This document shows, in pieces, positions 20,161-49,818 of a DNA stretch of 64,000 nucleotides. This DNA is from Polytrichum commune (Eukaryota; Streptophyta; Polytrichopsida; Polytrichales; Polytrichaceae). Position numbers and translations under genes: made by a program. Within the stretch, counting starts at the first letter, position 1. Every line of letters starts with the position of its first letter. The notes beneath the pieces were generated by a model. The model had not been told where the DNA came from. It made no database searches and saw only the letters and a list, made by a program, of their open reading frames with translations. The stretch covers positions 54,982,429 through 55,046,428 of the forward strand of contig OX485804.1 in assembly GCA_950295325.1 (NCBI GenBank), written 5' to 3'.

Positions 20161-20196
20161 TTTTTTTTTTTTTTTTTTTTTTTTCCCCCCCCCCCC
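20161..20196. repeat. T24-C12 homopolymer pair
   Basis: A T run is followed directly by a C run inside the LINE remnant, between the EN and RT parts. Confidence 0.85.
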
Positions 20197-21495: not shown

Positions 21496-21499
21496 TGAT

Positions 21500-30028: not shown

Positions 30029-30057
30029 ATTGGGAACAATGATCGGGGAGAACTGGC
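30029..30057 (+). mobile_element. hAT-type MITE copy 3, left part (split by retroelement)
   Basis: An 8-bp duplication ATTGGGAA (30029-30036) is followed by the MITE left terminus CAATGATCGGGGAGAACTGG (30037-30056). The last four bases (30054-30057, TGGC) are the retroelement target duplication. The rest of this MITE resumes at 40327 and ends at 40514, followed by ATTGGGAA again. Confidence 0.85.
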
Positions 30058-30163
30058 TGTCGTGTAAATAACGATCGTGTGTCACTGCAGCTCGAGTACC
30101 AACCACCACTAACAAACAAAACTAAAACATAGCAAAGTCACACATAAACAACACACCTCGACA
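30058..30163 (-). repeat. Terminal repeat B2 (outer 3' end), copy 1
   Basis: This 106-bp segment ends at the target duplication and differs from B1 (30472-30577) at one base. On the element strand it reads TGTCGAGG...CACGACA, so it carries its own short inverted ends. It directly abuts A2. Confidence 0.9.
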
Positions 30164-30469
30164 ATAGCTCTAAATCTCTTCAAATGCACACCAATTAGTC
30201 AAGCTATCTCTCACTCCACCAAGGGAGAATCCAAGAGTGTAAGTAGGGGAAGAAGAACTCAAGATTTATTGCAAAATCATGCAATCTACACCTCATACAA
30301 GCTCTCTCCACACACTAACTCACAAGACTTGACTTGGCAAGAATGCCAAGCCAAGGAGGAGGCTCCTCACTTAGGAGCCTTCCTCTCCACATCTAGATTC
30401 ATCCATCCAAATCTAGATGGATGAAACCCAACGGATACGGTGCGGCCTTCGATGCCGCATACCGTGACA
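30164..30469 (-). repeat. Terminal repeat A2 (internal copy), copy 1
   Basis: This 306-bp segment is identical to A1 (40021-40326) except for one base. On the element strand it begins TGTCACGG and contains an AATAAA polyadenylation-type signal. It is joined to B1 through the dinucleotide GC, which forms the palindrome GACAGCTGTC (30466-30475). Confidence 0.92.
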
Positions 30470-30471
30470 GC

Positions 30472-30588
30472 TGTCGTATAAATAACGATCGTGTGTCACT
30501 GCAGCTCGAGTACCAACCACCACTAACAAACAAAACTAAAACATAGCAAAGTCACACATAAACAACACACCTCGACATGCCCCCCCTC
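30472..30588 (-). repeat. Terminal repeat B1 with polypurine tract, copy 1
   Basis: On the element strand the purine tract GAGGGGGGGCA (30588-30578) is followed immediately by B1 (30577-30472), which begins TGTCGAGG. A PPT immediately before a repeat is where plus-strand DNA synthesis starts in LTR retroelements, so B1 occupies the U3-start position. Confidence 0.8.
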
Positions 30589-30861
30589 AGCTGACTATGG
30601 AGTCCCGCCAAGCAGCTAGGACCAATGCCAATCTAAAGGGAATGGATCATGAAAGATTGCTCCGCAACTAACTAGTGTGGTAAACGTTATTCCAAGGAAC
30701 TGTAGGCTGGGTGCAAGGTGAGCCCCATCCTTAATCGCCTCTGATGTTTGGCCATCAGATCCCAAAGAATTAAATCCACCGCCTCACGTTGGTTGCGTCT
30801 CTAAGCCATAACTCTTCATTTTCCATTTGGACAAGCACAAGATGATGAAAACCACACAGGA
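30589..30861 (-). other. 3' non-coding region of retroelement copy 1
   Basis: This lies between the terminal stop codon and the polypurine tract. Copy 2 has a comparable, partly similar stretch (48864-49177, shared GATTAAGGATGGGGCTCAC). No coding signal is seen. Confidence 0.6.
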
Positions 30862-32937
30862 TCATTGAGTACGATTGGTGGAAGCACCAAGTACCGAAGA
30901 TCCTCGACAGCGAGGACAACTCCACTGTCCAGATGGTAGAGAAGTCAAGGGTGGCCGCAAGCATGCCATGTGCCAACCGCGTTGACACTGATCACACAAG
31001 AGCATAGTAGCCGCTCCCTTCTTGTCTCCACACACAAAACATGGAAGACCCTCTGGTACGACGGCCAGTTCAGGATGAACTGTACCCTCAATAGGTAGAT
31101 GACATGGGGTACAGTTTTTGGAATGCTCGCGACATTCCCTGCCATCCTTGCCTTCCAAACCACTTGGCAACACCTCCTTCACCCGAAGGATAGTGCGCCC
31201 CGCCCTGACATCCAATGTCGTAGGCGCCTCACGTTGAAGATAAACATAATCCCCTTGCCGAAATCTCCGCAACTGAGGCCGGTAAGCACCACTACGAATG
31301 CGTGCATAACGCAATGTGTCACAGTGCTGAGCAATGGACAAATTCTCCATGGCCATAGGCATGGCCCTCTGGAAGAATTGAGCCCGCTCCTGCAAACACT
31401 CTGCCCAAAGGTCTGGGTCATCCAAGTTCACAACAGGAGCTAGTTTTTCCCGAATAGAACTCGGGAGTATAGGCTCACGTCCATACAATAATTGATACGG
31501 GCTGTAGGATGCCAAAGAGGCCTGCCTACTAAATCGATAGCCCATAGCAATCCATGGCAACATAAGGTCCCAATCTCGGTGGCTTCCCCGAAGTAATCCA
31601 TACTTCCTCAAGCCACGCTTGGTGGTCTGAACAACCCGTTCAGCCAAGCCATCTGCCTCCGGATGATCCCGAGAGGTGGTGCGGTGATCTATGAGAGCCT
31701 TAGTGCACAACTCCTCAAAAACACCAAGGAACTCCCTCCCTTGGTCCGTCAACACCTCAGCTGGTGCTCCAAAACGTGCTAACACATGATCCAAAAAGGC
31801 GGCCGCGGCCAACTCTGCAAAGTTCTGGGGTAGAGCAACAAGCTCAATCCATTTGCTAAAATGCTCGACCATCACCAAAACGTACTTTGCTCCACGTGGT
31901 GTAACCACCAACGGCCCTGCAAAGTCCAGCGACCAACGGTAGCCTAATCCCATGATAGGTAAGGACTGTAACTGAGGTGATAAGGTGTTAAAGCTAGACC
32001 TGACCCGGTCACAAACTTCACACCTCCCGACATATGCAGCCACCTGCTGATACATGCCAGTCCACCAATATTGGCCACGCAACATCGAATATGTCCTGCG
32101 TATGCCAAAATGGCCAAGTTCCTCGTGCACTTGTCGCACCAAGGAGGCCCTCTGATCCGGCCTAGGAACAATATGCCTTGTCCCATCCGGCCACAATCGG
32201 AATAACAAACCGTTTTCCAAACGGAACCTTGTTATTCGATGTCCAATCCTATCCCTTTCCATTGCCGAAATAGACAAAGGAAAGGTACCCTGTTGAAGCT
32301 TATGCAATACGGGAAGATCCTCCCATATATCCGCAATAGCTTGAGGCCGATCAGTCTCATCATCCGAGCCCTGTATCGGAATCTCAACAGATGCACCAGC
32401 AAATAAAGTGAGGTAGGCAGCCGCGTGCCAACCTGGAACCGCCTCTCGATCACAATCTCCATGCCACCTGGCCCCGGTCAAGTCCTCATCCAAAGGACTT
32501 GGATTGCGTGAGAGTCCATCTGCATCCATGTTGGTAATCCCAGCACGGTGTACCACCTCAAAGTCATACTCCTGGAGCAACAAAGCCCACCTGGCAAGCT
32601 TGCCAGTAAGCTTATCCGACTCCATGAGCCACCGTAACGGCTGATGGTCAGTCACCAAAGTAAAGTGCTGACCATAAAGATACGGCCGAAAATGGGCAAT
32701 AGCCCATACCGCCGCCAATGCTTCTTCCTCATAGGACGAATAATTGGCCTCCGCCGTGTTGTTGCTTCGCGACGCGTAAGCAACAACATACTCCCGGCCA
32801 ACGTCATCTTTCTGAGTAAGAACTGCTCCCAAACCCAATGAGCTCCAGTCTGTATGCAACTGGAAAGATTTGGAGACATCTGGACGTCGAAGCACTGGAG
32901 CCGTACCCAGTTTCTGCTTCAATGTCTCAAATGCCTG
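30862..32937 (-). pseudogene. Pol part 2: RNase H, integrase, C-terminal PHD finger (copy 1)
   Basis: The frame is open for 686 codons from 32922. RNase H is at about residues 15-145 (TDWSSLG, TDHQPL, NMDADGLSR). The integrase zinc site is H266-H271-C301-C304. The catalytic triad is D333, D393, E428, with 34 residues between the last two (DD35E). Residues 626-674 form a C4HC3 PHD finger (ligands C628, C631, C643, C646, H651, C654, C669, C672), with the LRPPL...W.CPRC ending typical of histone H3-tail readers. Just before it, C597, C604, C607 and H608 may make a further metal site. Integrase joins cDNA ends to the target; the PHD could steer it to chromatin, in the place where chromoviruses carry a chromodomain. 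An in-frame TAA (32940-32938) precedes this part where copy 2 has Gln, so as it stands it would not be made. Confidence 0.93.
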
Positions 32938-33210
32938 TTATTGCTCACGACCCCAAGTCCAAGGTTGGTCCTTGCTCGTGAGAATGGTGAGCGGCTTGGC
33001 AATCAAGCTAAAGTTCTTGACGAATCGCCGATAGTAATTCGCCAAGCCTAAGAAAGCACGAAGTCTCGGCACATCTACCGGTGCCGGAATCTTCTGCAAT
33101 GCGTCCACCTTAGTTTGTTGTACCCCAAGACCTCCTGGAACAATCATATGCCCCAAATATGCCAACCGGTCATGGAAAAACTTGCATTTTCCGTGGTGCA
33201 AGCGCAATCC
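32938..33210 (-). pseudogene. RT connection fragment between two stops (copy 1)
   Basis: This short open stretch encodes the end of RT and the connection (HHGKCKFF, YLGHMI, RAFLGLANYYRRFV). The same frame runs through from the RT part. The bounding stops are TAG (33213-33211), where copy 2 has TGG (Trp), and TAA (32940-32938), where copy 2 has CAA (Gln). Both are single transitions. Confidence 0.85.
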
Positions 33211-33999
33211 CTACCGCTGCAACCGTTCAAAAACGGATTGCAGATGCCTCACATGCTCCTGTGGTGTTGTGCTGAAGATGATCACATCGTCTATGTAACA
33301 CCGAGCAAAGGGCAAGCCAGAGAGAACTTGATCCATCACCCGCTGAAACTCAGCGGGTGCATTCTTCAGGCCAAATGGAAGAAACTTCCAATGATAAAGT
33401 TGATATTTCCCATCTTGATCAACTCCCCAAAATGCGGTCTTCACCCGATCTCCCGTAAGTAATGGAAGTTGGTGATATCCGGATCTCAAGTCCAAGGTGC
33501 TGAAGACCCGAAAAAATCCGATGGCATCGAACAACTCCTCCGGGATCGGCATGGGATACCGATCCGACTTGGTCTTCCGATTAACTGGACGGTAATCCCC
33601 ACACATCCGCTTCTCCGTCCAATTGCCAAAGATATCCTTCTTCGATGGCATAACCGTAGCACAAGCATACTCCCCGTTGGAAAGTTTGATTAGCCCTGCT
33701 GCCAAGAGCTCTCGGCAACGAGCCTGAACGCCAATCCGCTCGGAAACACTGAGCCTGTAAGGTCTCCGAAAAATGGGATGGTCGTCCTCCAACTGTATGT
33801 GGATGGGTTTTCCTTTATAACCTTCAAGATCTTGAAGGCTAAAAGCAAAACATCTACGGTACGAGCGAATAAATGCTCGTACCTTCCGTGCCTCAGCACC
33901 AGTGAGACGAGGGCCTAATTCAAGTGGCCAATCATCAAACTCTGTAGTCTCCCTCTCCACCAAAGGAGAACCACCTGATGCTGGCACAGACTCTAATTG
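33211..33999 (-). pseudogene. Pol part 1: reverse transcriptase (copy 1)
   Basis: This is in frame with and directly after the leaky TAG (34002-34000). Counting from the Val codon at 33987, the RT blocks are LSNGEYACATVMPSKKD, MCGDYRPVN, FSTLDLRSGYHQL (catalytic D166), FLPFGLKNAPAEFQ and CYIDDVIIF (catalytic D233, D234). The N-terminal EGYKGKP.HIQLEDDHPIFRRPYR is typical of Ty3/gypsy Pol. There is no ATG at the start, so translation presumably arrives by readthrough of the upstream TAG. A TAG at 33213-33211 replaces a conserved Trp and truncates it in this copy. Confidence 0.93.
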
Positions 34000-34002
34000 C
34001 TA
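33991..34002 (-). promoter_or_regulatory. Predicted stop-codon readthrough site TAG-CAA-TTA (copy 1)
   Basis: The methyltransferase frame ends TAG and continues in the same frame CAA TTA into RT. This matches the CAR-YYA context that makes UAG leaky in tobamoviruses. Copy 2 has TAG CAA TCA at the same position (45717-45725), although flanking protein sequence has diverged. Confidence 0.8.
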
Positions 34003-36009
34003 ATGAGAGGAGGGGGCATTAACCATGCCCCCAGTCTCGGTGCTAGTACTAGAGTCTGACATTTCTTCATCACCACCAATATGTGATGATGAAGCCACCA
34101 CCGGAGGCGAAGAAACCGAAGCAGTGTAAAAATGTTGAGCTCGAAGCTCCTCCATCACATACTGCTCGAATTGAAAAATTCGTTCGGCTTCTCCAACCAT
34201 GGCGTGAATTCCCTCCTCCATGGGTGTGGACCGCTGTGCCCCCTGACCAGAGTCCTCTGCCCCCAGAGACAAGCACTGGTCACCACGATGCCTTTGCAAT
34301 GAAAGGCATAAAGCAACAGTCCACACCATAGTATGAAGATCCATAGCTTGGCCCAACACGAAGCGTCGCTGGCCCTCAGAAAGGCCGGGAGCTGCGGTGG
34401 TGCCAGTGCGGAATCCCATGGCACGTTCCCGTTCGTCAGCCAATGGTTCGGTGTGGGTTTTGGTGTGAACATCCCACACCATACCCGGCCCCCGATCGCG
34501 GAAGGCGAATGACTGTGGAAACGTCATAAAGGTAGGAAATGCTTTCCGTGGTGTCCCCACTTTGTTGACCAATGCCAACGGGGGTAAATCATCTCGAACA
34601 ACCGGCAAAGAGGTCCGGTTTGCATCCAAGATGTCATCCACCTTCTGATCCAAAGGTAGAGGTATTGCAGAAAATGCTGCAGCTAAAGTAGATGACGGTG
34701 CGAGGTTGGTCCAAATCCACCGAGGCCGGTGGGCATAAGAACCAATGCTCGCGGCATCCACAAAAATGGGATCTCCAAGGTGTTGACGAACATAATGATC
34801 ACCTTCCAACACCTTATCCCGGGAGTCGCCCAACAATGGTACATTCTCGAATATATACCCTGGAGGAGTATGTTGGTGGGAAAACCACCACTGCATGAGG
34901 CGGATGAGGTCCCAAAACAAATTAGACCTGGGATCCTCTAGACCTCGGCCGGCTCCAGCACGTGAATGGCCTTGGCATGGCCATCCCGCAATCACCATAT
35001 CCACCGGACCTAAATGTCGTAAATCGGCCTCACTGATGAGTGTGACATCACGAGGGAGACGTGAAAAACACCCACGAATGGCAGTTGGAGGTAACTGTTG
35101 GGGGTACAATACCATCAATTGGTGAAGATGGTGACGAGCCACACAGGTGGACACTTGAGAGTTGTCCACATAGACATACCGTCTAACCGTGAGGCCAGCC
35201 TCCAATACGGCCGCTAAGCCTGTGCCGATGCCCCCAAACAGTTCCACCAAAGTAATTCCCGTGTCTGGCGGCTGCCATAAAATGGGATGTGCCAATGCCG
35301 AGAGGACACCGGGTATGACCAGTGTCCTAGGAGTGAGAGAGTGAACAATATCCTCGCACCTCCGAAATAGCTCGGCGGAATCACGCCAAGGAGGAAGGGG
35401 ATCCTTGGGATGGCGCACCAGTGCACCCTTAGGTGCCACATCCCGTTGATCGTTTGTACTCCCCATGAATGCCAATGACTCCTCCAACAATGCAGAACCA
35501 TAAGGCAATGTGTCCACCATAGCACCACATCCAAAAACCATAGATAATGGTGCTATGGTCGCGGCCGCCGCAAAAGCCACGGGAATAAGTTCTCTGCGGC
35601 CATCCCCAGCCGACCAACCTGGTCGGATCCACGCCTCCTCAGTCCAGTTGTCCAAACCAAAACCAAGAGGGTAAAGTGCTTGCTGACCAACTAAAATGTC
35701 ATAGTTGGTCGCATCCGTCACCGCACACCTAAGAAGAAGAGGTGCGGGTGAATCTCCAGGCTTCACTCGGAAGCTAAGATCTAATGGCTCCCGAGTATAA
35801 CCCATGGCCCGCTCCACGTGACCAATGGATGTGACAATGGTGAATGGACAGGGAGCCAAATCCTCGGCCTTCAACCCCAACTCTTGGGCAAGCCTCTTGC
35901 CGAGCATAACCGGTTGTGCCCCTGAATCCATCATCACACAACGGGGAGCAACCCGGGTAGCATTGCTCCCAGTACGACTGACCACCAAAATGCCGGTATC
36001 ATTCACCAT
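34000..36009 (-). CDS. Protease-DNA cytosine methyltransferase polyprotein part (copy 1)
   Basis: The frame is 669 codons from ATG 36009. Residues about 15-130 are a retropepsin-like aspartic protease (MMDSGAQPV, Asp28; NYDILVGQQALYPLG). Residues about 250-575 are a C5 DNA methyltransferase: motif I LVELFGGIGTG (254-264), motif II YVYVDN, catalytic PCQ with Cys345 in AGWPCQGHS, motif VI FENV (387-390), motif VIII RPRWIWTN (428-435), motif IX/X ERERAMGF and RRFVLGQAMDL. The target-recognition stretch is short (about 90 residues), and AASIGSYAHRPRWIW resembles the DNMT3/DRM type more than DNMT1. All catalytic motifs are intact, so the enzyme could be active. The protein would methylate cytosine in DNA, possibly element cDNA or target chromatin. 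It lies in one frame with gag upstream and RT downstream. Residues 576-669 are diverged and unrecognised. Confidence 0.93.
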   Translation of the reverse strand: MVNDTGILVVSRTGSNATRVAPRCVMMDSGAQPVMLGKRLAQELGLKAEDLAPCPFTIVTSIGHVERAMGYTREPLDLSFRVKPGDSPAPLLLRCAVTDATNYDILVGQQALYPLGFGLDNWTEEAWIRPGWSAGDGRRELIPVAFAAAATIAPLSMVFGCGAMVDTLPYGSALLEESLAFMGSTNDQRDVAPKGALVRHPKDPLPPWRDSAELFRRCEDIVHSLTPRTLVIPGVLSALAHPILWQPPDTGITLVELFGGIGTGLAAVLEAGLTVRRYVYVDNSQVSTCVARHHLHQLMVLYPQQLPPTAIRGCFSRLPRDVTLISEADLRHLGPVDMVIAGWPCQGHSRAGAGRGLEDPRSNLFWDLIRLMQWWFSHQHTPPGYIFENVPLLGDSRDKVLEGDHYVRQHLGDPIFVDAASIGSYAHRPRWIWTNLAPSSTLAAAFSAIPLPLDQKVDDILDANRTSLPVVRDDLPPLALVNKVGTPRKAFPTFMTFPQSFAFRDRGPGMVWDVHTKTHTEPLADERERAMGFRTGTTAAPGLSEGQRRFVLGQAMDLHTMVWTVALCLSLQRHRGDQCLSLGAEDSGQGAQRSTPMEEGIHAMVGEAERIFQFEQYVMEELRAQHFYTASVSSPPVVASSSHIGGDEEMSDSSTSTETGGMVNAPSSH

Positions 36010-36648
36010 CCGTACAACGCCAGGTCGAATGCCTCGACGCTCGCGAGCAGGTCAAGCAGCTACATCGGATAGATAAGTTGCGCCTGCAGAGGCTGGTGAA
36101 TGATAAGATGTGGTTGGCTCCTGGCCATCCAAGGTGTGTGCGTCAAAAGACGCAATGGCCTCCTCCGCAAGCCTCGCTCGCCGTTTGGCGGCTTCCTCAG
36201 GATCCTCCGTGGTAGGAAGGTCTGCGGTTGCTTGAGCCACAGTAAGAGAAGACGGGGTTGCCTTCCCCTCCAATATCCTACCTGCTAGGTAAAAAACCTT
36301 AGCTGGTTGGATATCGGATGACGACCAATCCATTGCTGTGAACAAAGGCGTGTGCAACACTTTGGATGCCAAAGTGTGCAGCACGTCGGTCGACGGACTC
36401 GAAGCCTCCAAGCTCGAATTGCGACCACTGACAGATTAGGCAGCATCAGCCAATCCAAAAGACAATGGAAGGCGTGCCTGACCAATCTGATCCGCGGGAC
36501 CATTGTGCCGAGCTCGTAAGCTGTCCACAGACTCTCCTGTGGTCGAAGGCGTGGCTCGTGACACGGTTTGAGCACGTGTCACAGCTGCAGAACTCACCAC
36601 CTCGCCCGAGGCTCCGAACATATAGTAATCCGGAGTGGAAGAACTAGC
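36010..36648 (-). pseudogene. Gag-protease linker region with three in-frame stops (copy 1)
   Basis: This is in the same frame as gag and protease. Stops are TAG (36651-36649), TAA (36438-36436) and TGA (36054-36052). Copy 2 is open through the homologous stretch. Conserved pieces are YMFGASGEVV, PADQIGQARLPLSFGL and VFYLAGRILEGKA. The family is unrecognised; it may be a structural or protease-proximal part of the polyprotein. The TGA can be explained as CGA to TGA. Confidence 0.8.
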
Positions 36649-38082
36649 CTAAGCTGCGGAGGAAGACGGTGAGGCCAAAATTTGGCCGGATGAAGCCAAG
36701 CTTTTGAACCTCTCCTCCATGGCTCCAATCTTCGCCTCCAACGTCTTCTCCCGGTCGGAAGAAGGACGTTTCTCAGGATGGAGAGCGAAGCAGTTCTCCA
36801 CCGCGTGATTGTTTCGCCCACAATGAGAACACTTCAATTGTTTGGGTAACTGATTACCCGTCCCCTTCGTCGAGCCCTTAGCGGGAACAAATGGTTTCCG
36901 CTTCGGAGTAGTGGCGGTCTGGGCTTGCCTATGCTTCGAAGGACAATCCTTCTTAGCATGGCCCGCCTGTCCACAAGACCAACAATGCAAGATCTTGTCC
37001 ACCTCTGCCTCCGCCAACCCCGCAGCTGCAACCGGAACCTTCCGGGATTTGCTAGAATCCACTAGCATGGACACCAAGTCAGTGGCGTCGTGCTGACACA
37101 AGGCACGATCACACTGCTCAACAATGGCGAAAGCTTCCGCAAGTGTCGCTCGGCCACCATGATCCATGATGATCCTGGGTAAAGCTAAGTCAATGAGGCG
37201 TTTGTCAAGTTTTGACAAAAACACCTTTACCAACTGGCTCTCGGCGAAAACACCTCCAGATTCTCTGGCAAACCTCGCCAACCTCGTGTACATGGTACAA
37301 GGTGTGTCATCTTTCTCCCGTCGAAAATCCTGGATACGCTGCATTTGATCGCGGCGGAAGCCTCCATATTCCGCCTCCAAATGGAGTTGGAATTCCTGTA
37401 GAGGATCAAAACCCGGCGGAGCTCCTAAAGAAGCTAATGCCGCCTGGGTAGCCTGGGCATAACGTGACAGTGGAAGAATGGGGCTCGAGGTACTCGCCGC
37501 TGCGGGAGCTTGGCCCTGAGCCGTGGGATTGATGGGAAAAGCTCCCTCCACATCCACCTCGTATACTCCCTCCTGTACCTCCGTCTTAACCTCCGGAACG
37601 GCCATCAAACTGGAAGTTGCGCCTTCCTTCAATGCGGATACCAACTCAACCCGAGTCTCCCAGTACCGCTCCACTTGGCGCAGCTCCATCCAATGAGCAT
37701 CCGTCCATTGCTCATAGGTCTGGAGAGCTTCGTGCTCTAAATGTTGTGGTAGAAGCTCGAACGCATACCAATCGTTGAAGTTGGTATTGCGTTGACGTTT
37801 CTCCCTCATCCATGTCCTGAACCGGATTTTCCAATCTTGCAAGGAAATGGTCCCTGCTCGACCAGAAAATCGGTCTCGAATGCCGCCTCTTGACTCCTCC
37901 TCCATCTCGTCGAAGGATCCCACCCAATGGACGTAAGAACGAGTGGCAGTCCCCCACGCCGAAGTAGGCTTAAAAGCCTCGTCGGGTGCTACCACTGGTT
38001 CACTGTCCAAAAGGTCTGAGGACCGACCTTGTGATGATGCTGGAGACGGCGAACGATAATGTTGGCTCCTCGTTGTAACCAT
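36649..38082 (-). CDS. Gag with two CCHC zinc knuckles (copy 1)
   Basis: This is 477 aa from the ATG at 38082-38080. The in-frame sequence further upstream lacks an ATG, so this start is chosen. A capsid-like helical part includes DEMEEESRGGIRDRFSGRAG, WYAFELLPQHLEHEAL and DFRREKDDTP.TMYTRLARFA. It is followed by two nucleocapsid zinc knuckles, C367-C370-H375-C380 and C418-C421-H426-C431. Gag packages the element RNA. It ends at TAG and the same frame continues into the linker. Confidence 0.9.
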   Translation of the reverse strand: MVTTRSQHYRSPSPASSQGRSSDLLDSEPVVAPDEAFKPTSAWGTATRSYVHWVGSFDEMEEESRGGIRDRFSGRAGTISLQDWKIRFRTWMREKRQRNTNFNDWYAFELLPQHLEHEALQTYEQWTDAHWMELRQVERYWETRVELVSALKEGATSSLMAVPEVKTEVQEGVYEVDVEGAFPINPTAQGQAPAAASTSSPILPLSRYAQATQAALASLGAPPGFDPLQEFQLHLEAEYGGFRRDQMQRIQDFRREKDDTPCTMYTRLARFARESGGVFAESQLVKVFLSKLDKRLIDLALPRIIMDHGGRATLAEAFAIVEQCDRALCQHDATDLVSMLVDSSKSRKVPVAAAGLAEAEVDKILHCWSCGQAGHAKKDCPSKHRQAQTATTPKRKPFVPAKGSTKGTGNQLPKQLKCSHCGRNNHAVENCFALHPEKRPSSDREKTLEAKIGAMEERFKSLASSGQILASPSSSAA

Positions 38083-38654
38083 AAACCCGCAATGGGTTCG
38101 GTCACTGAGCCAACAATCTAAACTAATGTGGTGTAAAGGTGAAGGGTAAAAGGCAACCTGCACCTGCAAACACCACCAAACTTATGGTCTGCTGGTCATC
38201 AACCCAGCCTCACCATAAGGAAAACAAGCACTGCCCACTTGGTGCACACACAAGGGTCTCGTCGGTCATTAATCCGACCTCACCCCCACAATACCCTATC
38301 ACAATCTAGGACAAACAAATTGGGGCAATGTTGGAAGACTCCAACACAACAAGCCCACCACAGGGGGAAGGTACCACAACAAAATACAAGGAACAATGCA
38401 AGAACAGCACTGGATCCTCTTCTCCAACACAACACTTAAGCAAAAATTCAAAGCGATTGTGACCAACCGGCACCCGCCTGCGGTTGGTGGTCAAAATATA
38501 GAGCCCCTGTTGCTCAAGTAAATAAATAGCATAACCACATCCCTCATCTAGTACTACATCATAAAATTCTCTCCTCCTTGTAGTCCCCAGAATTTGTATT
38601 TCTCAACACAATTTGTTCTACCCTTAAGCAATTTCTCAACAATATATAAACCTA

Positions 38655-38785
38655 TCCCCAAATAATTCTACACCTATCCCCAACAAATCCTACACCTATC
38701 CCCAACAATCTAATAAATTGATCCCCAAATAAATTCTACACCTATCCCCAATAAATCCTACACCTATTCCCCAAATAAATAACAA
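38655..38785. repeat. Tandem repeat in retroelement leader
   Basis: The unit TACACCTATCCCCAA with AAATTC or AAATCC spacers recurs about four times inside the leader of copy 1. It is not seen in copy 2. Confidence 0.7.
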
Positions 38786-39980
38786 TGCCCTTAATTTTCT
38801 TTTAAACAAAAGAAAATGGCAAACCCCCGCTTATGCCAAGTACCTCTATCAAGTTGTTGCAAGAGAAAATGAAGCTAGCCGCAAATTCGCCGCAATCCCA
38901 CGCCCTCCGCGTGTTGCCGGACGCCCCCGCGAACCTCTCCCGCAATGCTCCACCTTTCCCAACAAAATGATTCCGTACCAAACCTCCGACAATCCCCAAG
39001 AAACTCAAGAAGGTGCTCTCAATCCATCCTTAAAGTTTGTTATTCATAAACCCAAGAATTGCACGCTCTTGAAATTTTGAATGCCCCCAACACCCATGGA
39101 GAATGTCTCCGTCAAGATACACCTCTCTTAGATCCAAAGAATTGGTATCTTAGTTGATTGTCTATATATACATATACATATATATTTGTATTAAAAAATA
39201 CAAATAAACATGTATATATATATATCTCTCTCTACCTACACAATGATTTTTTTAAATATAAAAATAAAAATAAAAATCGACCCCCTGCCCCCCTGCAGCA
39301 GTTCTGCTGCTGCTGCTGCTATTGCTGCCGCAGCAGAGGAGGGGAGGGAGTTGGGCTTGGCGCAGGTAGGCTTGGGGGGGAGGTTAGGTGTAGGCTTGGG
39401 GGGGGGCTTAGGTGTAGGGGGGGGAAGGGTGAGAGGAAGGAGGGAGGAAGGTGAGAGGGGAGGTACGGGGGGGAAGAGAGGAAGGTACGGGAGGGAAGTA
39501 CCGGGGGAGGGGGTTACCGAGGGGGGGGGGAGAAGGAGGAGGGGGGGGAGCCGCGGGCCCGGGCCGCCGGCCGCCGCCGCGTGCCGCCCGGATGGCCGCC
39601 GCAGCTCTGCACTCCGGGACCGACCAGGAGCTCCGGCTCCAAGAGTCGGCTCCTCTCCTTTTTTTTTCTTTTTTTTTTTGATTTTGTTTTTAAATGAACT
39701 TGAACTCAAATTGGAATGAAGAATGCTCTACACAAGCTCAATGATACGAATTCAAGCTTGCAAGCGGAAAAATAACAAGGAATTCCGTAATAAATTCAAT
39801 AATTCATCACCACAATTCACCTTGATGTGGCCTTCAAAAACAAGCATTCTTCATCTTGTTGCGCCGCAAATCCGCGGTGTTCTCTCTCCAGAACTTCGCA
39901 ACTTCATCACTCCTTGTCCTCACGCCTTTTCTTGTGTGTTATATATCAAAAATGTAGAAGAAAACAACAAAAATGAAGCA

Positions 39981-39993
39981 ATTCTTGCCAAGT
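39981..39993 (-). promoter_or_regulatory. Putative self-primer binding site (copy 1)
   Basis: On the element strand, ACTTGGCAAGAAT lies 27 nt inside the A1 end and is perfectly complementary over 13 nt to ATTCTTGCCAAGT in A1 (40201-40189) and in A2. No TGG-initiated tRNA-complementary site follows A1. In copy 2 the paired sequences differ at two positions with matching changes in both arms. Confidence 0.6.
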
Positions 39994-40020
39994 GAGAAGG
40001 AAGAGAGTAGAACACTCATA

Positions 40021-40326
40021 ATAGCTCTAAATCTCTTCAAATGCACACCAATTAGTCAAGCTATCTCTCACTCCACCAAGGGAGAATCCAAGAGTGTAAG
40101 TAGGGGAAGAAGAACTCAAGATTTATTGCAAAATCATGCAATCTACACCTCACACAAGCTCTCTCCACACACTAACTCACAAGACTTGACTTGGCAAGAA
40201 TGCCAAGCCAAGGAGGAGGCTCCTCACTTAGGAGCCTTCCTCTCCACATCTAGATTCATCCATCCAAATCTAGATGGATGAAACCCAACGGATACGGTGC
40301 GGCCTTCGATGCCGCATACCGTGACA
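40021..40326 (-). repeat. Terminal repeat A1 (outer 5' end), copy 1
   Basis: This 306-bp segment begins TGTCACGG at the target duplication and is near-identical to A2. It is not followed by B, unlike A2. It contains the AATAAA-type signal at 40122-40127 (complement) and the 13-nt self-complementary arm at 40189-40201. Confidence 0.92.
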
Positions 40327-40514
40327 TGGCGGTTAGTTACAAATGAACCGGTTGAAGTTCAAGACTACAAGCAAATTGCCGATCATTTTGGAGGAATTTA
40401 TAGAATATACCCCAATTTAATAAAGGACAACCGGAGGATGTCAACATGTAACCGGTTGGACTTGCAAACACTAGGATCTCAACCGATTATGCCCAAAAAT
40501 CTCCCCAACCACTG
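40327..40514 (+). mobile_element. hAT-type MITE copy 3, right part
   Basis: It begins with the retroelement target duplication TGGC, continues the MITE started at 30037 and ends ATCTCCCCAACCACTG at 40514. It is followed by ATTGGGAA (40515-40522), identical to the duplication at 30029-30036. This shows that the MITE was present before the retroelement inserted into it. Confidence 0.88.
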
Positions 40515-40632
40515 ATTGGGAAAGCACCTTAGTGGTACGGGGAGCCTCAGCTCAATGAAGGTCAAGAGAAAACATGTTATATAAGTTAAACCGCAAATCG
40601 GAGCATGGGATTTGGGATCCTTTCACACATGT

Positions 40633-41063
40633 TGTCACGTGAGGTGACATCGGGGGGCTAAGTTACGTCAATTTAGGAGTAAATGGACTCCATTAGGAGT
40701 CCATGTGTGTTGGGATGAGTAACGGACTCCATTGGGAGTCCTAGTTAGTTGTTCATCCACTCCATGGATGAACTCCACATAGGATTGGGGTTGTATGGAG
40801 AGGAAGGCCTCTTGACTTGCCATTGTTGTCAAGTCAAGTCTTGTGAGTTTGTTTTGAGAGAGAGAGAGCTTGTTGTTGTTTTCTCATGGCTATGGTGTAG
40901 TAGATTATGAATAAAGCCTTTGCATTCTTTCTCCACCACTTGCACTCTTGGATTCTCCCTTCGTGGAGTGAGAGATAGCTTGACTCTTGTGTGTGAATTT
41001 TAGAGTTTCTTAAGCTTTGTAAGGAGACATTTTAGTTTCTTAAGCTTGGAGAGAAAAACCCTC
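40633..41063 (+). repeat. Terminal repeat A1 (outer 5' end), copy 2
   Basis: This 431-bp segment begins TGTCACGTGAGG and contains AATAAA near 40911 and the arm ATTGTTGTCAAGT (40822-40834). It is related to A of copy 1 over the CAAGTCAAGTCTTGTGAGTT and CTCTTGGATTCTCCCTT phrases. Confidence 0.92.
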
Positions 41064-41065
41064 AT

Positions 41066-41078
41066 ACTTGACAACAAT
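41066..41078 (+). promoter_or_regulatory. Putative self-primer binding site (copy 2)
   Basis: ACTTGACAACAAT, two bases after the A1 end, is perfectly complementary over 13 nt to ATTGTTGTCAAGT at 40822-40834. The homologous pair in copy 1 keeps full pairing despite two base changes. This covariation suggests that the pairing matters. Confidence 0.6.
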
Positions 41079-41378
41079 TGTTCAAATTTTTCATTTTTGG
41101 TTGTATTTCTAAGCTAGAATGGCCCAATAATGAGAGCAAATGAGTGATACAAGTGTTTGAAAGCTTAGTTCGTCATTTCTTGCAATCCTCAAGAAGATTT
41201 TGAGAGAAATCTTCCCATTTTTCTTTTGTTGTCTCTTGTATTTTCTTCAATTGTTGATGTTTGAATCTTGAGATTCCATTTAGTTTCGAGATTCTCAAGT
41301 CACATTTTCTTGCTTGCAAATTGTTAAGCAAAGTTTAATTTAAATACAAACATAAACCAAATTCAAAATCCGGTTTAG

Positions 41379-41620
41379 TTTTAATTTTGGTGGAGCTCCG
41401 GACGGATCCGGAGCTCACCGGACCCTCTTGGAGCTCCTGGAGCTCCGGTTCTGAACTCTAAGCGGCGGCGAACCGGGCTGGGCGGCGCAAACCGGGCCGG
41501 GCGGGTGCAGGCCGGGCCGGGGGCGGGCGGCACCAGCCGGGCCCCCAGACGCCGGGCCCCTAGGCCAGCTAGGCGGGCGGGCTCTGGCCAAGCCCAACTG
41601 GCTTCCCCCTTTAAAGGGGG
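41379..41620 (+). other. GC-rich, hairpin-forming leader block (copy 2)
   Basis: This strongly GC-rich leader segment lies in AT-rich surroundings. 41393-41416 is a perfect hairpin with a 10-bp stem (GAGCTCCGGA and its complement) and the loop CGGA. Palindromes GGAGCTCC follow at about 41430-41447. The copy 1 leader has a GC-rich block with the same GAGCTCC core. A packaging or dimerisation role is speculation. Confidence 0.6.
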
Positions 41621-41621
41621 C

Positions 41622-42929
41622 ACCTTACCTTGCAGGAGCCGATATTATCGATCTCCATCACCAGATTACTTGGAGGACGTGCATACCACAAATCTTGAGC
41701 CAGAGGTAGATACCAACGAGGCTTTTGAGCCTATTTCGGCGTTGGACACTACTAGTAGGCTTCGGATTTGGAGTGTCGGCACGTTCGACGAAATGGAGGA
41801 CGATCGCCACAATTCAGTGCGTGATCGGTTTTCAGGTCGAGCTGGGGGCATTTCCTTGCCCGATTGGAAACTCCGGTTTCGTACCTGGATTAAGGAGAAA
41901 CGCCAAAGGTCTTCCAATTTCAATGATTGGTATGCCTTTGAACTTCTGCCTCAACATTTGGAGTATGAGGCACTCCAAACTTATGAACGCTGGACAGAGG
42001 GTCATCAGCGACAACTTCGGGAGGTGGAGCAGTATTGGGAGGCTCGGGTTGAGCTCATTTCAGCCCTTAAGGATGGGGCGGTTGCTACCTTAGCTCCACC
42101 CACCTTAAAGGAGGAGGAATCGCCGGCGGAGTCTAAGGACACGGAACTGGCACTTGGGCCAATGGTGGCTAGCAGTAGCACGGCAACCCTTTCACGGGTG
42201 GCACGTGCTACACAGGCAGCATTGACGGATGTTGGTCCACCACCTCTGTTTAATCCCCTTACTGAATTTGTTGCACATTTGGAAGTGGAGTATGGTGGGT
42301 TTCGGCGAGACCAGATGCAGCACATCCAGGATTTCCGCCGAGAGAAGGATGATACTCCACGGACCATGTATACGCGACTCGCGCGATTTGCTGTGGAGTC
42401 GGGAGGTGTTTTTGCTGAGAGTCAGCTTGTTAAAATCTTTTTGTCTAAGATTGACAAGCGGCTACTCGAATTGACATCACCTCGGATTATCCTCGACTAC
42501 GAGGGCCGAACTACGCTTGCACAAGCGTTTGCCGTGGTTGAGAGATGTGATCGGGCTCTTTGCCAACATGATGCCACAGATATGGTATCTTGGATGACAA
42601 AGAGTCCGAAACCAAGAAGGATTGTCACAGCTACTAGTAGTTTAGTTGAGACTCAACCCGTCAAGGAGCAAAAGATTTTGCATTGTTGGGGTTGTGGAGA
42701 AGCTGGTCATTCGAAGAATGATCCCAATTGTCCTAAGAAGAAGAAAACTCAGCCTTTGGGAAAATTAAAACAAAAAATGGAACCAGTAAAGGCAGGGGAC
42801 AATTCTAAGAAGAGACAATTGAAATGTAACCATTGTGGTGGCACTAATCACGATGTGGATCATTGTTTCCAACTTCATCATGAGATGCGGCCTGCCAGTT
42901 ATGTCACTGGAAAGTCTCCAAGGGAGTAG
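41622..42929 (+). pseudogene. Gag (copy 2), start codon lost
   Basis: This is homologous to copy 1 Gag from YYRSPSP onward. The codon aligned with the copy 1 ATG reads ACC, and the in-frame upstream sequence has no ATG. The first zinc knuckle is altered (CWGCGEAGHSKNDPNC, two extra residues before the last Cys); the second (CNHCGGTNHDVDHC) is intact. It ends at TAG (42927-42929), where copy 1 reads Lys, and the frame continues into the linker. Confidence 0.88.
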
Positions 42930-45716
42930 AGTCTTGAGGCTAAGGTGGCAGAGCTTGAGCAAAAGCTCAAATCTTCTGCATATTTTGCTCAAATTTCTGA
43001 GCCGCATGTGGGTGGTGGCACCTCGGGTTCGGACATATATATGTTTGGAGCAGCTGGAGAGGTGGTGGCGGCGGCTTCTATTTGCTCACAAACATTGGCA
43101 GATGCGGTGGCTTCCACGAGTGGTGGTAGCAACGAGGTGCTACATCCTCGCCATGCCGGACCAGCTGATCAAATTGGTCAAGCACGTTTACCTCTTTCAT
43201 TTGGATTGGTAGACACCACTGCTGTTGGGGCTAAAAACCCTGTACCTTTGAGAGATGGGGATTCCATCTCGAATGATGTTACGCAGGCATTGGCATATAA
43301 AATTCTCCATATGCCAATTTTCTCGGGTTCGGAGTTTATGGCTTCGGATTTCAAGCCTGCTGCAGTTTTTTATTTAGCTGGGAGAATGTTAGAAGGTAAG
43401 GCTGATTTGCCATCCCTTCAAGTATCCCAAGCTGTGGTTGACGTACCTGTGGCTGAGGAGTTGGAGGACTTAGCCAATTTGCGAGCGAGTCTTGCGGATG
43501 CGGCGATCATTGCTTTTGGTAAGCAAACTGATATTCCTCCAGCATCAATTCCAGCAGTGGATACGTCATTTTCGAATTATGCGTCGGGAGCGGCATATCT
43601 TGCAGACATTTCTGCAAGGCCTGCTCGCGAACGGCATAATTTGCAACCTAGAATTGTACGGCTGATGAACGACAAATCTTTGTTTGTCGTTTCACGCACG
43701 GATATGCCCACTATCCGTGCTACACCACTGAGAGTTATGATGGATTCCGGTGCTCAACCGGTTATGATTGGCAAAGGACTTGCTGACAGTCTTGGATTGA
43801 CGCCAACAAGCTTGGATCCTTGTCCATTCGCTATTGTGACTTCAGTAGGGGGCACTGAACGTGCAACAGGTTACACCAAGGCACCTCTACGTTTGATTTT
43901 TCATGTGGGGGCAGGGCCTACTTACACTCATTTGTCAATGAAGTGTGTTGTTACTAATGCTACCAACTATGATATACTTGTTGGTCAGCAAGCTCTTTAC
44001 CCACTTGGCTTTGGTTTGGATAATTGGACGGAAGAGGCATGGATTAGACCGGAATGGTCCACTGGAGATGGCAGGAAGGTATTTATTCCCGTCACATTTG
44101 CAGCCACTACTATGACTATGGTTGCAGAGGCAATGTTTGGTTGCAGCGGTTCAGTTGCAGATTTGCCTTGTGCTCCAGTTTTGTTGGAGGAAACAATGGA
44201 CTACACTTGTAATGCGGCAGAACAACAATTTTTACCATCTTTTCAAATTCCTGCTCGACATTTCAAGGATCCACCTCCACCATGGCGAACTCCTAAGGAG
44301 TTATCCGACCATTGTCAACACATTATAGCGGAGTTGGAGCTTGGAGAGGCACCTCCAACTTCATCTTCATTTTCTTTTGTTCAACCCATTCGTTGGCAAC
44401 CATCACCTGAAGGTATTGTCCTTGTGGAGATCTTTGGAGGTATTGGCACAGGTTTGGCGGCAGTGTTGGAAGCTGGAATTACAGTTTGGCGATATATTCA
44501 TGTGGACAATGGGTATGCAGCCAACAGAGCCGTCCGACACCACATCCAACAATTGTTGTTGAGATATCCCGCACAATTGTCAACCTCTGCCATTCATGGA
44601 TGTTGTGGTCAACTTCCTCAAGATGTCACTATGATTAGTGATGAGGATTTGAGAAGGTTGGGCCACGTGGATTTGATTATTGCAGGATGGCCTTGTCAAG
44701 GCCATTCACGGGCAGGAACTGGCCAGGGATTGGATGACACTAGGTCTAGTTTGTTTGCGGATTTGATGCGATTGACGCAATGATGGTTTACCCACCAATC
44801 AACTCCGCCAGGGTACATTTTCGAAAATGTACCATTATTGGGTGATACCCGGCACAAAGTGGTGATGGATGGTGAGTACATTAACCAAATTTTGGGTACT
44901 CCAACATTTCTGGATGCTGCATCTTTGGGATCCTTTGCTCATCGGCCTCGTTGGTTTTGGACCAACTTGGTATCACCTCGGGTGTTTTCAGCGGCGATTG
45001 CACGCATTCCCCGCCTTATGGATCGTAAGGTGGATGACATTTTAGATGATCATCGTGTTTCCTTGGCAGTTACCAAAGATGACACCTTTTCATTTGCATT
45101 AATTAACAAGGTGGTCATTCCGAGAGGTGCACTACCTACTTTTGTGACATATCCACAGTCTTTTGCATTTCGATCTCGTGGACCTGACATGGTTTGGGAT
45201 TCAAAATCCCAAACTTATGAGGAGCCTACGACAGATGAGCGGGAACGCGCCATGGGTTTTCTTACAAGTACCACGGCTGCTCACGGGCTTCAAGAAGGTC
45301 AGAGACGTTTCCTATTGGGGCAAGCTATGGATCTTAATAGCATTGTGTGGATGATTGGAATTTGTCTTGCTGCTCAACAACGTATGGATGACCAATTGCT
45401 TATTCTGAGGGTATAGAACAATGGTCAGGGGGCAATGGAGCCGCAATTCAAGGATCACATTGAGGTCAATGACACCGAGGGATTATTTCCTTTGAAACTT
45501 CATGTTGCGGAAGAGCTTCGAGCCCAACGTGTTTTTTCGGCTTTGGCCCAAAAGTTTGGGAAGTTGAAGGCCCATAAAATGTTTCCACTTCTATTTCTTG
45601 GTGATACTTCATATGTGGGTAGCTATTTAGCTACACAAACTGATTGTAGTGGAGAGGATACGCATTTGGATTCAAGTGCAGATGAAGGGGACAAAGGTGT
45701 TGCCCTCTCCACGGAC
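42930..45716 (+). pseudogene. Linker, protease, DNA cytosine methyltransferase (copy 2)
   Basis: This is open from 42930 to a TGA at 44781-44783 (Trp in copy 1), then to TAG at 45414-45416, then to the conserved TAG at 45717. The linker (YMFGAAGEVV, PADQIGQARLPLSFGL, VFYLAGRMLEGKA) and protease (MMDSGAQPVM, NYDILVGQQALYPLG) are intact. The methyltransferase has motif I VEIFGGIGTG, the catalytic AGWPCQGHS, FENV, RPRWFWTN and RRFLLGQAMDL. The TGA falls between the catalytic motif and FENV, so no full enzyme would be made. Conservation of the same gene order in a diverged copy shows that the methyltransferase is a stable part of the family. Confidence 0.92.
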
Positions 45717-45725
45717 TAGCAATCA
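45717..45725 (+). promoter_or_regulatory. Predicted readthrough site TAG-CAA-TCA (copy 2)
   Basis: TAG CAA TCA joins the methyltransferase frame to the RT frame without a frame change. It fits CAR-YYA and is positionally equivalent to 34002-33994 in copy 1. The residues on either side are poorly conserved, so retention of the stop plus context is notable. Confidence 0.8.
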
Positions 45726-46594
45726 CAGGCTGTGCTGGCACCAAGTGGCAATCCTTCTATGAAGAAGGAAACCACGGAGTTTGACGATTGGCCAATTGAA
45801 GTGGGGCCAAAGCTGACTGGTGCCGAAACACGAAAGGTACGGGCATTTATTCGCTCTTACCGTAATTGTTTTGCCTTTAGTCTTCATGATCTTGAAGGAT
45901 ATAAAGGTAAACATGTTCGTATTCAACTCGAGGACGACCACCCTATTTTCAGACGGCCGTACAGACTTAGTACCTCTGAAAGGTTGGGTGTTCAAACTCG
46001 ATGTCAAGAGTTATTGGCAGCGGAATTGATTGAACTCTCCAATGGAGAGTATGCTTGTGTCACGGTTATGCCGTCAAAGAAGGATATCTTTGGCAACTGG
46101 ACGGAAAAACGGATGTGTGGTGATTATCGTCCAGTCAACCGCAAGACCAAGTCGGATCGATATCCAATGCCGATGCCGGAGGAGTTGTTTGTTGCACTAG
46201 GATTTTCTAGAATCTTCAGCACTCTAGATTTGAGGTCTGGTTATCACCAATTACCTTTGTTGTTGGGTGATCGGGTGAAGACCGCATTTTGGGGAATTGA
46301 TAAAGATGGCAAGGATCAACTTTATCATTGGAAATTTCTGCCATTTGGTCTCAAGAATGTACCAGCTGAATTTCAGCGGGTGATGGACCAATTATTGGCT
46401 GGTTTGCCGTTTGCTAGATGTTACATTGATGATGTTATCATCTTTAGTAACAGTCCACATGATCATGTGAGACATTTGTAAGCGGTATTTGAACGACTTC
46501 AACGGTGGGAACTCCGTTTACATCATGAAAAATGTAAGTTTTTCCATGATCAATTGCCCTATTTAGGCCACATGATTGTCCTGGCGGTCTTGGT
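45720..46594 (+). pseudogene. Reverse transcriptase (copy 2)
   Basis: This carries all RT blocks: MCGDYRPVN, FSTLDLRSGYHQL, FLPFGLKNVPAEFQ, CYIDDVIIF. A TAA at 46479-46481 replaces a Gln of copy 1. A 1-bp deletion near 46581, in the codons for the GHMIVPGG block, shifts the frame. Confidence 0.9.
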
Positions 46595-48073
46595 GTGCAA
46601 CAGGCGAAGGTGGATGCTTTGCACAAAATTCCCGCACATAGTGATGTACCACGGCTTCGTGCATTTCTAGGATTGGCAAATTATTATAGGAGGTTTGTCA
46701 AAAACTTTAGTTTGATTGCCAAACCTCTTACCATTCTCACGGGGAAAGACCAACCATGGATTTGGAGTCGGGAACAACAACAGGCATTTGATACATTGAA
46801 GCAGAGGTTTGGTTCAGCGCCAGTGCTTCGACGCCCGGATGTGTCTAGAGCTTTTCAATTGCACACGGATTGGAGTGCAGTGGAATTGGGAGCGGTATTG
46901 ACACAGAAAGATGAAGAGGGAAAGGAATATGTGGTGGCTTATGCATCTAGAAGTAATAATAGTGCTGAATCTAATTATTCTTCTTATGAAGGCGAGGCCT
47001 TGGCGGCCGTTTGGGCCATTGCACATTTTCGACCTTATTTGTATGGGCAGAATTTTACTTTGGTGACTGATCATCAGCCTTTAAAATGGCTTATGGAATC
47101 AGATAAGCTCACCGGAAAACTTGCTAGGTGGGCATTGTTACTTCAAGAATATGATTTTGAAGTTGTTCACCGAGCAGGAATTGCCAACTTGGATGCAGAC
47201 AGATTGTCTCGCAATCCAAGTCCTTCAGATGAGGATTTAACTGGAGCCAGGTGGCATGGAGATTGTGATCGTGAGGCAGTGCCGGGTTGGCATGCTGCCA
47301 CGTATCTCACAATGATGTCGGGATTGGCTGCTGAAATCCTTGTGGAAGAGCAAGATGAGGAGGTTGATAAATCTCTCGTTGTTAGTGATGTGTGGGAAGA
47401 CCAGGCGGTCTTGCACAAACTTCAACAAGGGATATTTCCTCTTGGACTATCTTCTATGGAGCGAGATAGAGTTAGTCACCAGATAACAAGGTTTCGTTGG
47501 GCAAACGGCTTGTTATTTCGTGTGTGGCCGAACGGAACGAGGCGCATCGTCTCAAGACCAGATCAAAGAGCTTCTTTGGTGCGGCAAGTGCACGAGGAGC
47601 TTGGACATTTTGGAGTGCGAAGGACACACTCTATGTTGCGCAACCAATATTGGTGGACTGGTATGTATCAACAGGTTGCCACTTATGTTTCTCGATGTGA
47701 AGTATGTGACCGGGTCATGTCAAGTTTTAATACTTTGTCACCTCAACTTCAGCCTTTACCTATTATGGGCTTGGGATATCGTTGGTCTTTGGATTTTGCC
47801 GGACCGCTTACTATCACTCCACGTGGGTCCAAGTATGTGCTTGTGATGGTGGAGCATTTTAGTAAGTGGATTGAACTCGTGGCTCTTCCCCAAAATTCCT
47901 CAGAATTGGCGGCTATGGCATTTCTTGATCGAGTTTTGGCACGGTTTGGAGCACCTGCAGAGGTGTTGACGGATCAAGGGAGAGAATTTCTTGGATCTTT
48001 CGAGGTTTTGTGTACCAAGGCTTTGATTGATCATCGGACAACTCCAGAGATCACCCTGAGGCAGATGGCTTAG
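46595..48073 (+). pseudogene. RNase H and integrase N-terminal part (copy 2)
   Basis: The open frame carries RNase H (HTDWSAVEL, TDHQPL) and the integrase zinc site (HEELGHFG...CEVCDR). The first two catalytic Asp blocks are SLDFAGP and LTDQGREF. A 1-bp deletion at about 48042, just before the HPEADGLAE block, breaks the frame ahead of the catalytic Glu. Confidence 0.9.
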
Positions 48074-49294: not shown

Positions 49295-49296
49295 GC

Positions 49297-49814: not shown

Positions 49815-49818
49815 ATGT

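Follow-up and report, generated by a model that had tools for sequence, protein, structure and literature searches.

The window, a 64,000-nt stretch of the Polytrichum commune genome (assembly GCA_950295325.1, contig OX485804.1, positions 54,982,429-55,046,428 of the forward strand), contains two retroelements whose terminal repeats are split and shuffled in the order A1-internal-B1-GC-A2-B2, and we confirm that this arrangement exists as described and is how the family is normally organised. We propose, with a probability of about 70%, that it belongs to a Ty3/Gypsy-type retrotransposon that would prime its own reverse transcription, have the attachment site of its integrase inside the LTR and insert via an opened two-LTR circle. 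The anatomy, the target duplications, the complementarity of primer and primer-binding site, and the position and scars of the repeat joint are read directly from the DNA.

Element 1 occupies positions 40326-30058 of the minus strand, runs from TGTC to GACA and is flanked by a GCCA duplication, which reads TGGC on the plus strand at 40327-40330 (A1 end) and 30054-30057 (B2 end). Its 333-nt A1 (39994-40326, minus strand, as are all features of this element; outer end TGTCACGG) has its limits set by the target duplication and by the primer-binding site ACTTGGCAAGAAT (39981-39993) directly 3′ of it, while the self-primer ATTCTTGCCAAGT (40189-40201, A positions 126-138) marks the predicted 5′ end of the RNA. 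Towards the other end, the polypurine tract GAGGGGGGGCA (30578-30588) adjoins the start of the 106-nt B1 (30472-30577), followed by GC (30471-30470), a 306-nt A2 (30164-30469) and a 106-nt B2 (30058-30163; outer end ACACGACA). A2 lacks 26-27 nt where it meets B2; none of the other 18 complete-looking copies shows this deletion. B1 and A2 meet in the palindrome GACA-GC-TGTC (30466-30475), the proposed cutting site of the integrase, which is unchanged in 15 of the 16 B-A-B loci checked and is also present in element 2 and in a related contig, L060. The sequence bearing this palindrome, and the proposed integrase target, is GACAGCTGTC. A sequence-only reading had already described for element 1 the order A1...B1-A2-B2, TG...CA outer ends with a perfect 4-bp duplication, the limits of B2 and an internal B1-GC-A2 after the polypurine tract; all of this holds, and the order proves typical of the family. 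Its A1 (40326-40021) had the right outer end and the wrong length, 306 nt instead of 333.

The family encodes Gag, protease, a C5-DNA methyltransferase, reverse transcriptase, RNase H, a DD35E integrase and a PHD finger. In element 1, these are distributed over a Gag frame with a CCHC zinc knuckle slightly under the Pfam cut-off (36649-38181), a frame with a weak aspartyl-protease match and a C-5 cytosine DNA methyltransferase (34000-36051), the first part of the reverse transcriptase (33211-33999), and a frame comprising RNase H, integrase (H2C2 and DD35E core) and a C-terminal PHD finger (30862-32937). The domains follow one another as in the pol of Ty3/Gypsy elements (protease, RT, RNase H, then an integrase with H2C2 and a DDE core), the protease match being weak and the methyltransferase standing between protease and RT. 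Pfam and sequence analysis bear out the DD35E integrase claimed earlier, and the frame matches by sequence the Ty3 and PFV integrase chains, with Ty3 7q5b as the best PDB match. The Pfam scan covered the eight longer frames of the window elements and two L060 frames, and detected in them no tyrosine recombinase; nor did it detect a chromodomain at the integrase C terminus, where the PHD finger stands instead.

Element 2, on the plus strand at 40633-49814, has diverged from element 1 and displays the identical repeat order between ATGT duplications at 40629-40632 (A1 end) and 49815-49818 (B2 end). Its 433-nt A1 (40633-41065) contains the primer (40822-40834) and is followed by the primer-binding site (41066-41078). 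Interrupted gag, protease, methyltransferase, reverse transcriptase, RNase H and integrase frames extend over 41385-48762, and the terminal block (49188-49814) consists of B1 (49188-49294), GC (49295-49296), A2 (49297-49707) and B2 (49708-49814), with 2 nt lost at the A2/B2 joint.

Across the genome, we scored the best 40 of 944 candidate A matches, reading mostly 1.5-kb stretches around A and little of the interiors; 34 of these 40 show the split-repeat order and represent 19 copies. For 14 of these 19 complete-looking copies, the reading covered just the two ends, which were paired by strand, spacing and target duplication. Exact 4-bp duplications flank the shuffled ends in 17 of the 19, vs 1 of 342 mis-paired flanks, and the end positions are therefore not due to chance. 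This mapping of copies and duplications had been suggested by the sequence-only reading, which named full repeats at both ends as evidence against itself. Among the best 40 of 944 matches, none has identical complete LTRs at both integrated ends, and none shows the B-A start without a following B that a conventional B-A...B-A copy would display. Exact duplications also flank two A-internal-B copies (L018/L050, ATAC; L036/L053, GAAT) and a solo A-B copy (L041, ATGT), so that the 17 copies, both A-internal-B copies and the solo copy all carry the short, 4-bp duplication expected of a DDE integrase. Two complete-looking pairs, L023/L037 and L033/L024, are devoid of one, the latter two loci lying 13.9 kb apart. 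In 15 copies, A1 and A2 differ by 1.80 mismatches within copies vs 7.31 between copies, and B1 and B2 by 0.93 vs 2.00; to judge from these mismatch counts, the A1/A2 and B1/B2 pairs look as if they were remade together within each copy. Against this, the nearest match, ties allowed, is the copy's own partner in only 12 of the 15 for A and 11 for B.

The primer-binding site has a 13-nt exact complement inside A, the sequence of which differs among three families: three positions have changed, each with a compensating change. In family 1, the complement is perfect in 20 of 23 A1 loci and has one mismatch in the other 3. The primer site is paired in the predicted RNA fold of all three families, and matched primer/site pairs are computed to be more stable than swapped ones. 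Against this, 6 of 2000 shuffles did as well as the L060 complement, and in copy 1 the final three base pairs of the primer have predicted pairing probabilities of 0.30-0.48. A tRNA 3′ end was set aside as the primer in favour of this complement; the site after A1 is not known to match any usual tRNA. A tRNA anticodon loop as the pairing partner of TTATGAG, which lies at the truncated end of A, was likewise given up when other copies revealed where A really ends.

Since the self-primer site adjoins A1 and the polypurine tract adjoins B1, ordinary reverse transcription would generate an LTR of the form B-GC-A, with the cDNA ends predicted at the A|primer site and tract|B boundaries. The actual integrated ends fall at the palindrome GACA/GC/TGTC, within this predicted LTR. 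In 17 of 20 family-1 copies, the A2|B2 joint is as long as the predicted cDNA ends would make it; the deviating ones are element 1, with its loss on the A side, L024, with one additional A, and L041, which lacks 26 nt on the B side. These features favour an A2|B2 joint formed from the predicted cDNA ends, with private indels in a few copies; the joint of L037, which ends in T at a position where its own A1 has C, speaks against it.

We infer the RNA ends, the circle and its cutting as steps of the following cycle. Transcription would start in A1 at the self-primer and end in A2, so that both RNA ends would share the same part of A. The RNA 5′ end, annealed to the primer site after A1, would prime minus-strand DNA and the polypurine tract plus-strand DNA, leading to an ordinary cDNA with B-GC-A at each end. 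Joining of the cDNA ends (the A end and the B start) would produce a two-LTR circle in which the LTRs meet at an A|B joint. The DD35E integrase would then open this circle at one of its two GACA-GC-TGTC palindromes, cutting both strands directly after CA so that 2 nt (GC) overhang, and insertion of the product, duplicating 4 bp of the target, would result in A-internal-B-GC-A-B, whose uncut B1-GC-A2 would keep the attachment site for the following round. A one-LTR circle is predicted to give A-internal-B, which is found in two copies; these could also have arisen if B1 and B2 recombined once the element was inserted, and the solo A-B copy if A1 and A2 did. The reopened two-LTR circle with LTR = B-GC-A, already put forward by the sequence-only reading, is favoured by the agreement of the self-primer site, the polypurine tract and the A2|B2 joint. 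For retroviruses, insertion through the cutting of two-LTR circles is disputed, and the circle route is usually considered a dead end for this class of elements. We lean towards a further proposal, that of a DDE-integrase lineage in which integration would have to proceed from the two-LTR circle, because the palindrome used for attachment sits inside the LTR, and in which the split order would be a heritable footprint of this route, independent of DIRS.

An identical circle would be obtained by a DIRS/PAT-like replication in which A2|B2 is copied from the parent RNA, the A1 and B2 ends are joined over a B1-A2 splint and a DDE integrase has taken over from the tyrosine recombinase; the repeat order matches that of PAT/Ngaro/VIPER elements, as given for VIPER in a passage of PMC6681497. 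We consider this unlikely: it leaves unexplained both the position of A2|B2 at the primer-site and polypurine-tract boundaries and the single-copy indels at this joint, and B1 and B2 do not resemble separate lineages (between-copy mismatches of 2.34 for B1-B1, 1.66 for B2-B2 and 2.00 for B1-B2). The structure, the joint scars and the target duplications would be the same if linear cDNAs were joined end to end and the integrase cut two palindromes one unit apart with no circle. This seems quite unlikely, as two molecules must join, and no multi-unit copy came to light in the loci that were read, for the most part 1.5 kb centred on A, in a search not designed for it. As the circle is itself deduced, end joining could also be dispensed with altogether, if unconventional reverse transcription gave a linear cDNA ending directly at TGTCACGG and ACGACA; this is very unlikely, given that the primer site and polypurine tract predict different ends and that A2|B2, where some copies have lost nucleotides, looks like cDNA ends that have been joined. 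Later rearrangement of ordinary Gypsy copies by recombination between neighbours can practically be dismissed, for although such repeats do recombine and two pairs lack a duplication, the order is common to two diverged families, the duplications at the shuffled ends of 17 of 19 complete-looking copies contradict it, and the best 40 of 944 matches include no conventional copy.

Relatives were not found with the integrase frame in the viral contigs searched; by alignment, these contigs gave 22 loci, all at 23-29% identity. Among 17 loci from the search of genome contigs, L060 alone is close (86%), the rest showing 26-43% identity over short stretches. L060 (CADCWO010000201.1) is a closed contig of 9285 nt with 127-nt identical ends and one B-GC-A, which immediately precedes the internal region, an adjacency missing from the split-repeat copies. 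It is set aside as direct proof of the circle because closed contigs can be an assembly product of high-copy elements.

Split repeats on a Gypsy element have been known since 2018, when the Fig. 4 legend of de Mendoza et al. (PMC5890265) stated a DIRS-like repeat arrangement for KnitGypsy-Dnmt3 of Klebsormidium nitens. By its description, that element resembles ours in its Gypsy domains, the Dnmt in its polyprotein and its DIRS-like repeats; the main-text passages on it mention neither target duplications nor a primer site, and give no analysis of the joint and no mechanism (PMC5890265). A K. nitens integrase-PHD protein (P0038) shares 55% identity with the query across 45% of its length; in a separate search, none of the 30 matches listed, most of them nameless, carries the name of this species. 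Besides PMC5890265, our literature search recognised no title or abstract start describing split repeats on a DDE-integrase element, and found no target duplications, self-primer covariation, joint scars or circle model for such an element. This precedent, together with the self-priming, the methyltransferase and PHD finger, and the palindrome as proposed cutting site, goes beyond the sequence-only reading. That reading had rightly pointed to the order A1-internal-B1-A2-B2 of PAT, Ngaro and VIPER (for VIPER, a passage of PMC6681497); those elements use a tyrosine recombinase, whereas here there are a DD35E integrase and 4-bp target duplications, and the likeness is limited to the order because these duplications are present and Pfam detected no tyrosine recombinase in the frames scanned. 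If our proposal is correct, the two groups would share the split order by convergence, and such elements would be overlooked by annotation that demands a matching pair of terminal LTRs. Tf1/sushi and Tj1 also have a primer site complementary to the predicted RNA 5′ end within the repeat (for Tj1, a passage of PMC4600332), and the present family differs from them by its split repeats and by a PHD finger, with no Pfam chromodomain, at the integrase C terminus. The closest parallel to the proposed cutting comes from in-vitro work on PFV and HIV, part of the debate on whether two-LTR circles can be integration substrates for retroviruses: PFV integrase cuts the two-LTR joint after CA on both strands, with 2-nt 5′ overhangs, which is the geometry proposed here (PMC1180852), and in HIV-1 the palindrome at the joint of the two-LTR circle is likewise cut after CA on both strands (PMC1905944). 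In those viruses the palindrome is the new LTR-LTR joint, whereas here it is a fixed internal sequence of the LTR and the LTR-LTR joint lies elsewhere; the integrated copies bear a joint that integration of an ordinary linear cDNA would not leave, which makes the circle question testable on a natural element.

Element 1, the window copy, occupies 40326-30058 on the minus strand and runs from A1 to B2 in the split order A1-internal-B1-GC-A2-B2, A and B being the two parts of its repeat. On that strand, A1 (40326-39994, 333 nt) is followed by a primer site (39993-39981) and then by gag, a protease/methyltransferase frame, reverse transcriptase, RNase H and an integrase carrying a PHD finger; a polypurine tract with its last base at 30578 leads into B1 (30577-30472), the GC dinucleotide (30471-30470), A2 (30469-30164) and B2 (30163-30058). 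The outer ends, TGTCACGG...ACACGACA, are flanked at either side by GCCA (minus-strand reading). The sequence-only reading had ended A1 at 40021 instead of 39994, since this copy's A2 is truncated by 26-27 nt where it joins B2, a loss seen in none of the 18 remaining complete-looking copies. The leader between A1 and gag holds a 22/46-nt tandem repeat array (38650-38780).

Element 2 (40633-49814, plus strand) lies head to head with element 1 and has the same split order, with ATGT duplications. The two A regions are similar (75%) along just some 190 nt, and the elements therefore belong to different families. The spacer between them (40347-40504) is about 80% complementary to 52777-52933, 12 kb away, so that both seem to sit within an older repeat. 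Elsewhere in the window, DUF7869 frames at 1294-2488 (best E 4e-33), perhaps a transposon relic, lie among other open frames (180-3310) without a Pfam match. Inverted-repeat pairs of 97-110 nt with 77% complementarity and short loops, at 4297-4539 and 50483-50709, are possibly hairpin or MITE-like elements. Very strong strand bias marks 16001-22000 (GC skew 0.48-0.53, AT skew -0.21 to -0.26), where the plus strand is rich in G+T over 6 kb; the region has one tiny tandem array and a 242-codon frame with no Pfam match.

The 408-Mb assembly (64 contigs) was searched with 300 nt of A, and the best 40 of 944 candidates were scored and all examined with 600 bp at either side. Within these flanks, 23 matches had no adjoining B, 16 read B-A-B and one had A with a partial B; for the 10 partnerless matches, eleven further 10-kb stretches were retrieved. 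In this set of the best 40, 34 matches resolve into 19 complete-looking A-internal-B-GC-A-B copies: 15 match pairs, of which the window copy alone was read end to end and the others were paired by strand, spacing (7.9-13.9 kb) and target duplication, and four whose partner repeat was in the retrieved stretches. Two further copies have the form A-internal-B (L018/L050 and L036/L053) and one is a solo A-B (L041); in L013/L049 similarity ends after the integrase, and the retrieved 10 kb did not reveal the far end of L035 or L044. The check for copies with full repeats at both ends, B-A...B-A, found none among the best 40 of 944 matches, in agreement with the split order first read from the window.

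Exact 4-bp duplications adjoin TGTCACGG and ACGACA in 17 of the 19 complete-looking copies, both A-internal-B copies (ATAC, GAAT) and the solo A-B (ATGT), vs 1 match in 342 mis-paired flanks; these ends were therefore joined to the target. The exceptions are L023/L037 and L033/L024, the latter 13.9 kb apart and perhaps not one copy.

The encoded proteins match Pfam C-5 cytosine DNA methylase, RVT_1, RNase H, H2C2, rve integrase and a C-terminal PHD finger, with a weak aspartyl-protease match and a zinc knuckle just under the cut-off. The integrase frame has a D-D35-E triad (D338, D398, E433) that is invariant among 20 aligned sequences; the best solved structure by sequence is Ty3 (chain 7q5b), followed by prototype foamy virus (PFV) integrase, and eight frames scanned with Pfam contain no tyrosine recombinase. 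The copy 1 pol frame is broken between 33211 and 32937, and element 2 frames are likewise broken. Named protein relatives come from liverworts (Riccia, Calypogeia, Marchantia) and streptophyte algae (Klebsormidium, Closterium). A closed copy of a relative, contig L060 (1-9285), is filed under the cyanobacterial bin AVDCRST_MAG81; its gag-methyltransferase frame stays open across the closing point and its pol frame is open for 1047 codons. A similar misbinning may account for P0128, a methyltransferase assigned to Obscuribacterales.

Directly 3' of A1 lies ACTTGGCAAGAAT, which is perfectly reverse-complementary to ATTCTTGCCAAGT (positions 126-138 of A). The corresponding pairs of element 2 (ACTTGACAACAAT/ATTGTTGTCAAGT) and L060 (ACTTGACAAAGAT/ATCTTTGTCAAGT) are equal in place and length, with three changed positions, each compensated, and each pair is the longest inverted repeat found in its region; shuffles attained 13 nt in 0, 0 and 6 of 2000 cases (copy 1, element 2, L060). 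Twenty of 23 family-1 A1 loci (element 1's genomic copies) have perfect pairs and three have one mismatch. Folded from the predicted RNA start, primer and site strands pair in all three families (probabilities 0.30-1.0, 0.63-1.0 and 0.45-1.0, respectively), and matched duplexes reach -16.1 to -18.4 kcal/mol vs -5.4 to -11.9 for swapped ones. Self-primed elements such as Tf1 and Tj1 share this layout. B1 begins directly after GAGGGGGGGCA, and primer site and polypurine tract together define a predicted LTR, B-GC-A, of about 441 nt. The cDNA ends would thus lie at the B start and A end, and neither coincides with an integrated end.

B1 and A2 meet in the palindrome GACAGCTGTC, unchanged in 15 of 16 family-1 B-A-B loci checked (L024 has one change) and also present in element 2 and L060. 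Cutting after CA on each strand would produce 2-nt 5' overhangs of sequence GC, the dinucleotide that the integrated ends lack and the internal joint retains. PFV integrase cuts its own two-LTR joint in this manner, after CA on both strands with 2-nt 5' overhangs (PMC1180852), and HIV-1 integrase likewise cuts the palindrome at its own LTR joint (PMC1905944).

We propose that self-primed reverse transcription of the ordinary kind would be followed by joining of the cDNA ends into a two-LTR circle, which integrase would open at one of the internal palindromes and insert with a 4-bp target duplication. RNA ends, circles and cutting are our reconstruction from sequence, and we give this route, the simplest path through all the evidence, a probability of roughly 70%. 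It would account for the repeat order, for the GC being internal but not terminal, and for where the joint lies and how it is scarred. Complete-copy transcripts would begin and terminate inside A, as strand transfer requires, and B1-GC-A2 would have to be kept because it is the sole template for the next attachment site.

The A2|B2 joint is the A end plus the B start; 17 of 20 family-1 copies (the 19 complete-looking copies and the solo A-B) have the predicted length there, among them L037, which has a base change at the joint. In the window copy the A side has lost 26-27 nt and one base is shared, L024 has a single extra A and L041 lacks 26 nt on the B side; these three altered joints are what end joining would leave. 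Element 2 has lost 2 nt, and L010/L014, among the nearest copies by A, carries no scar at this joint. In 15 copies, A1/A2 differ by 1.80 mismatches within vs 7.31 between copies and B1/B2 by 0.93 vs 2.00, and, with ties counted, the closest repeat is the copy's own partner in 12 of 15 cases for A and 11 of 15 for B; the repeats therefore look remade together, though not in every copy. The A-internal-B copies, whose transcripts would have no second A, would be explained by insertion of a one-LTR circle, though recombination after insertion would do as well. A concatemer of linear cDNAs in place of the circle would be nearly equivalent, and we consider it improbable.

The split-repeat arrangement on a Gypsy element is not new, because the Fig. 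4 legend of de Mendoza et al. 2018 (PMC5890265) describes KnitGypsy-Dnmt3 of Klebsormidium nitens as having repeats structured as in a DIRS retrotransposon and the domain composition of Gypsy. The main-text passages found in that paper on KnitGypsy, on circles and on target sites give neither a mechanism nor a target duplication for it. To this known arrangement, the present analysis adds target duplications, a self-primer, an examination of the A2|B2 joint and the proposed circle model.
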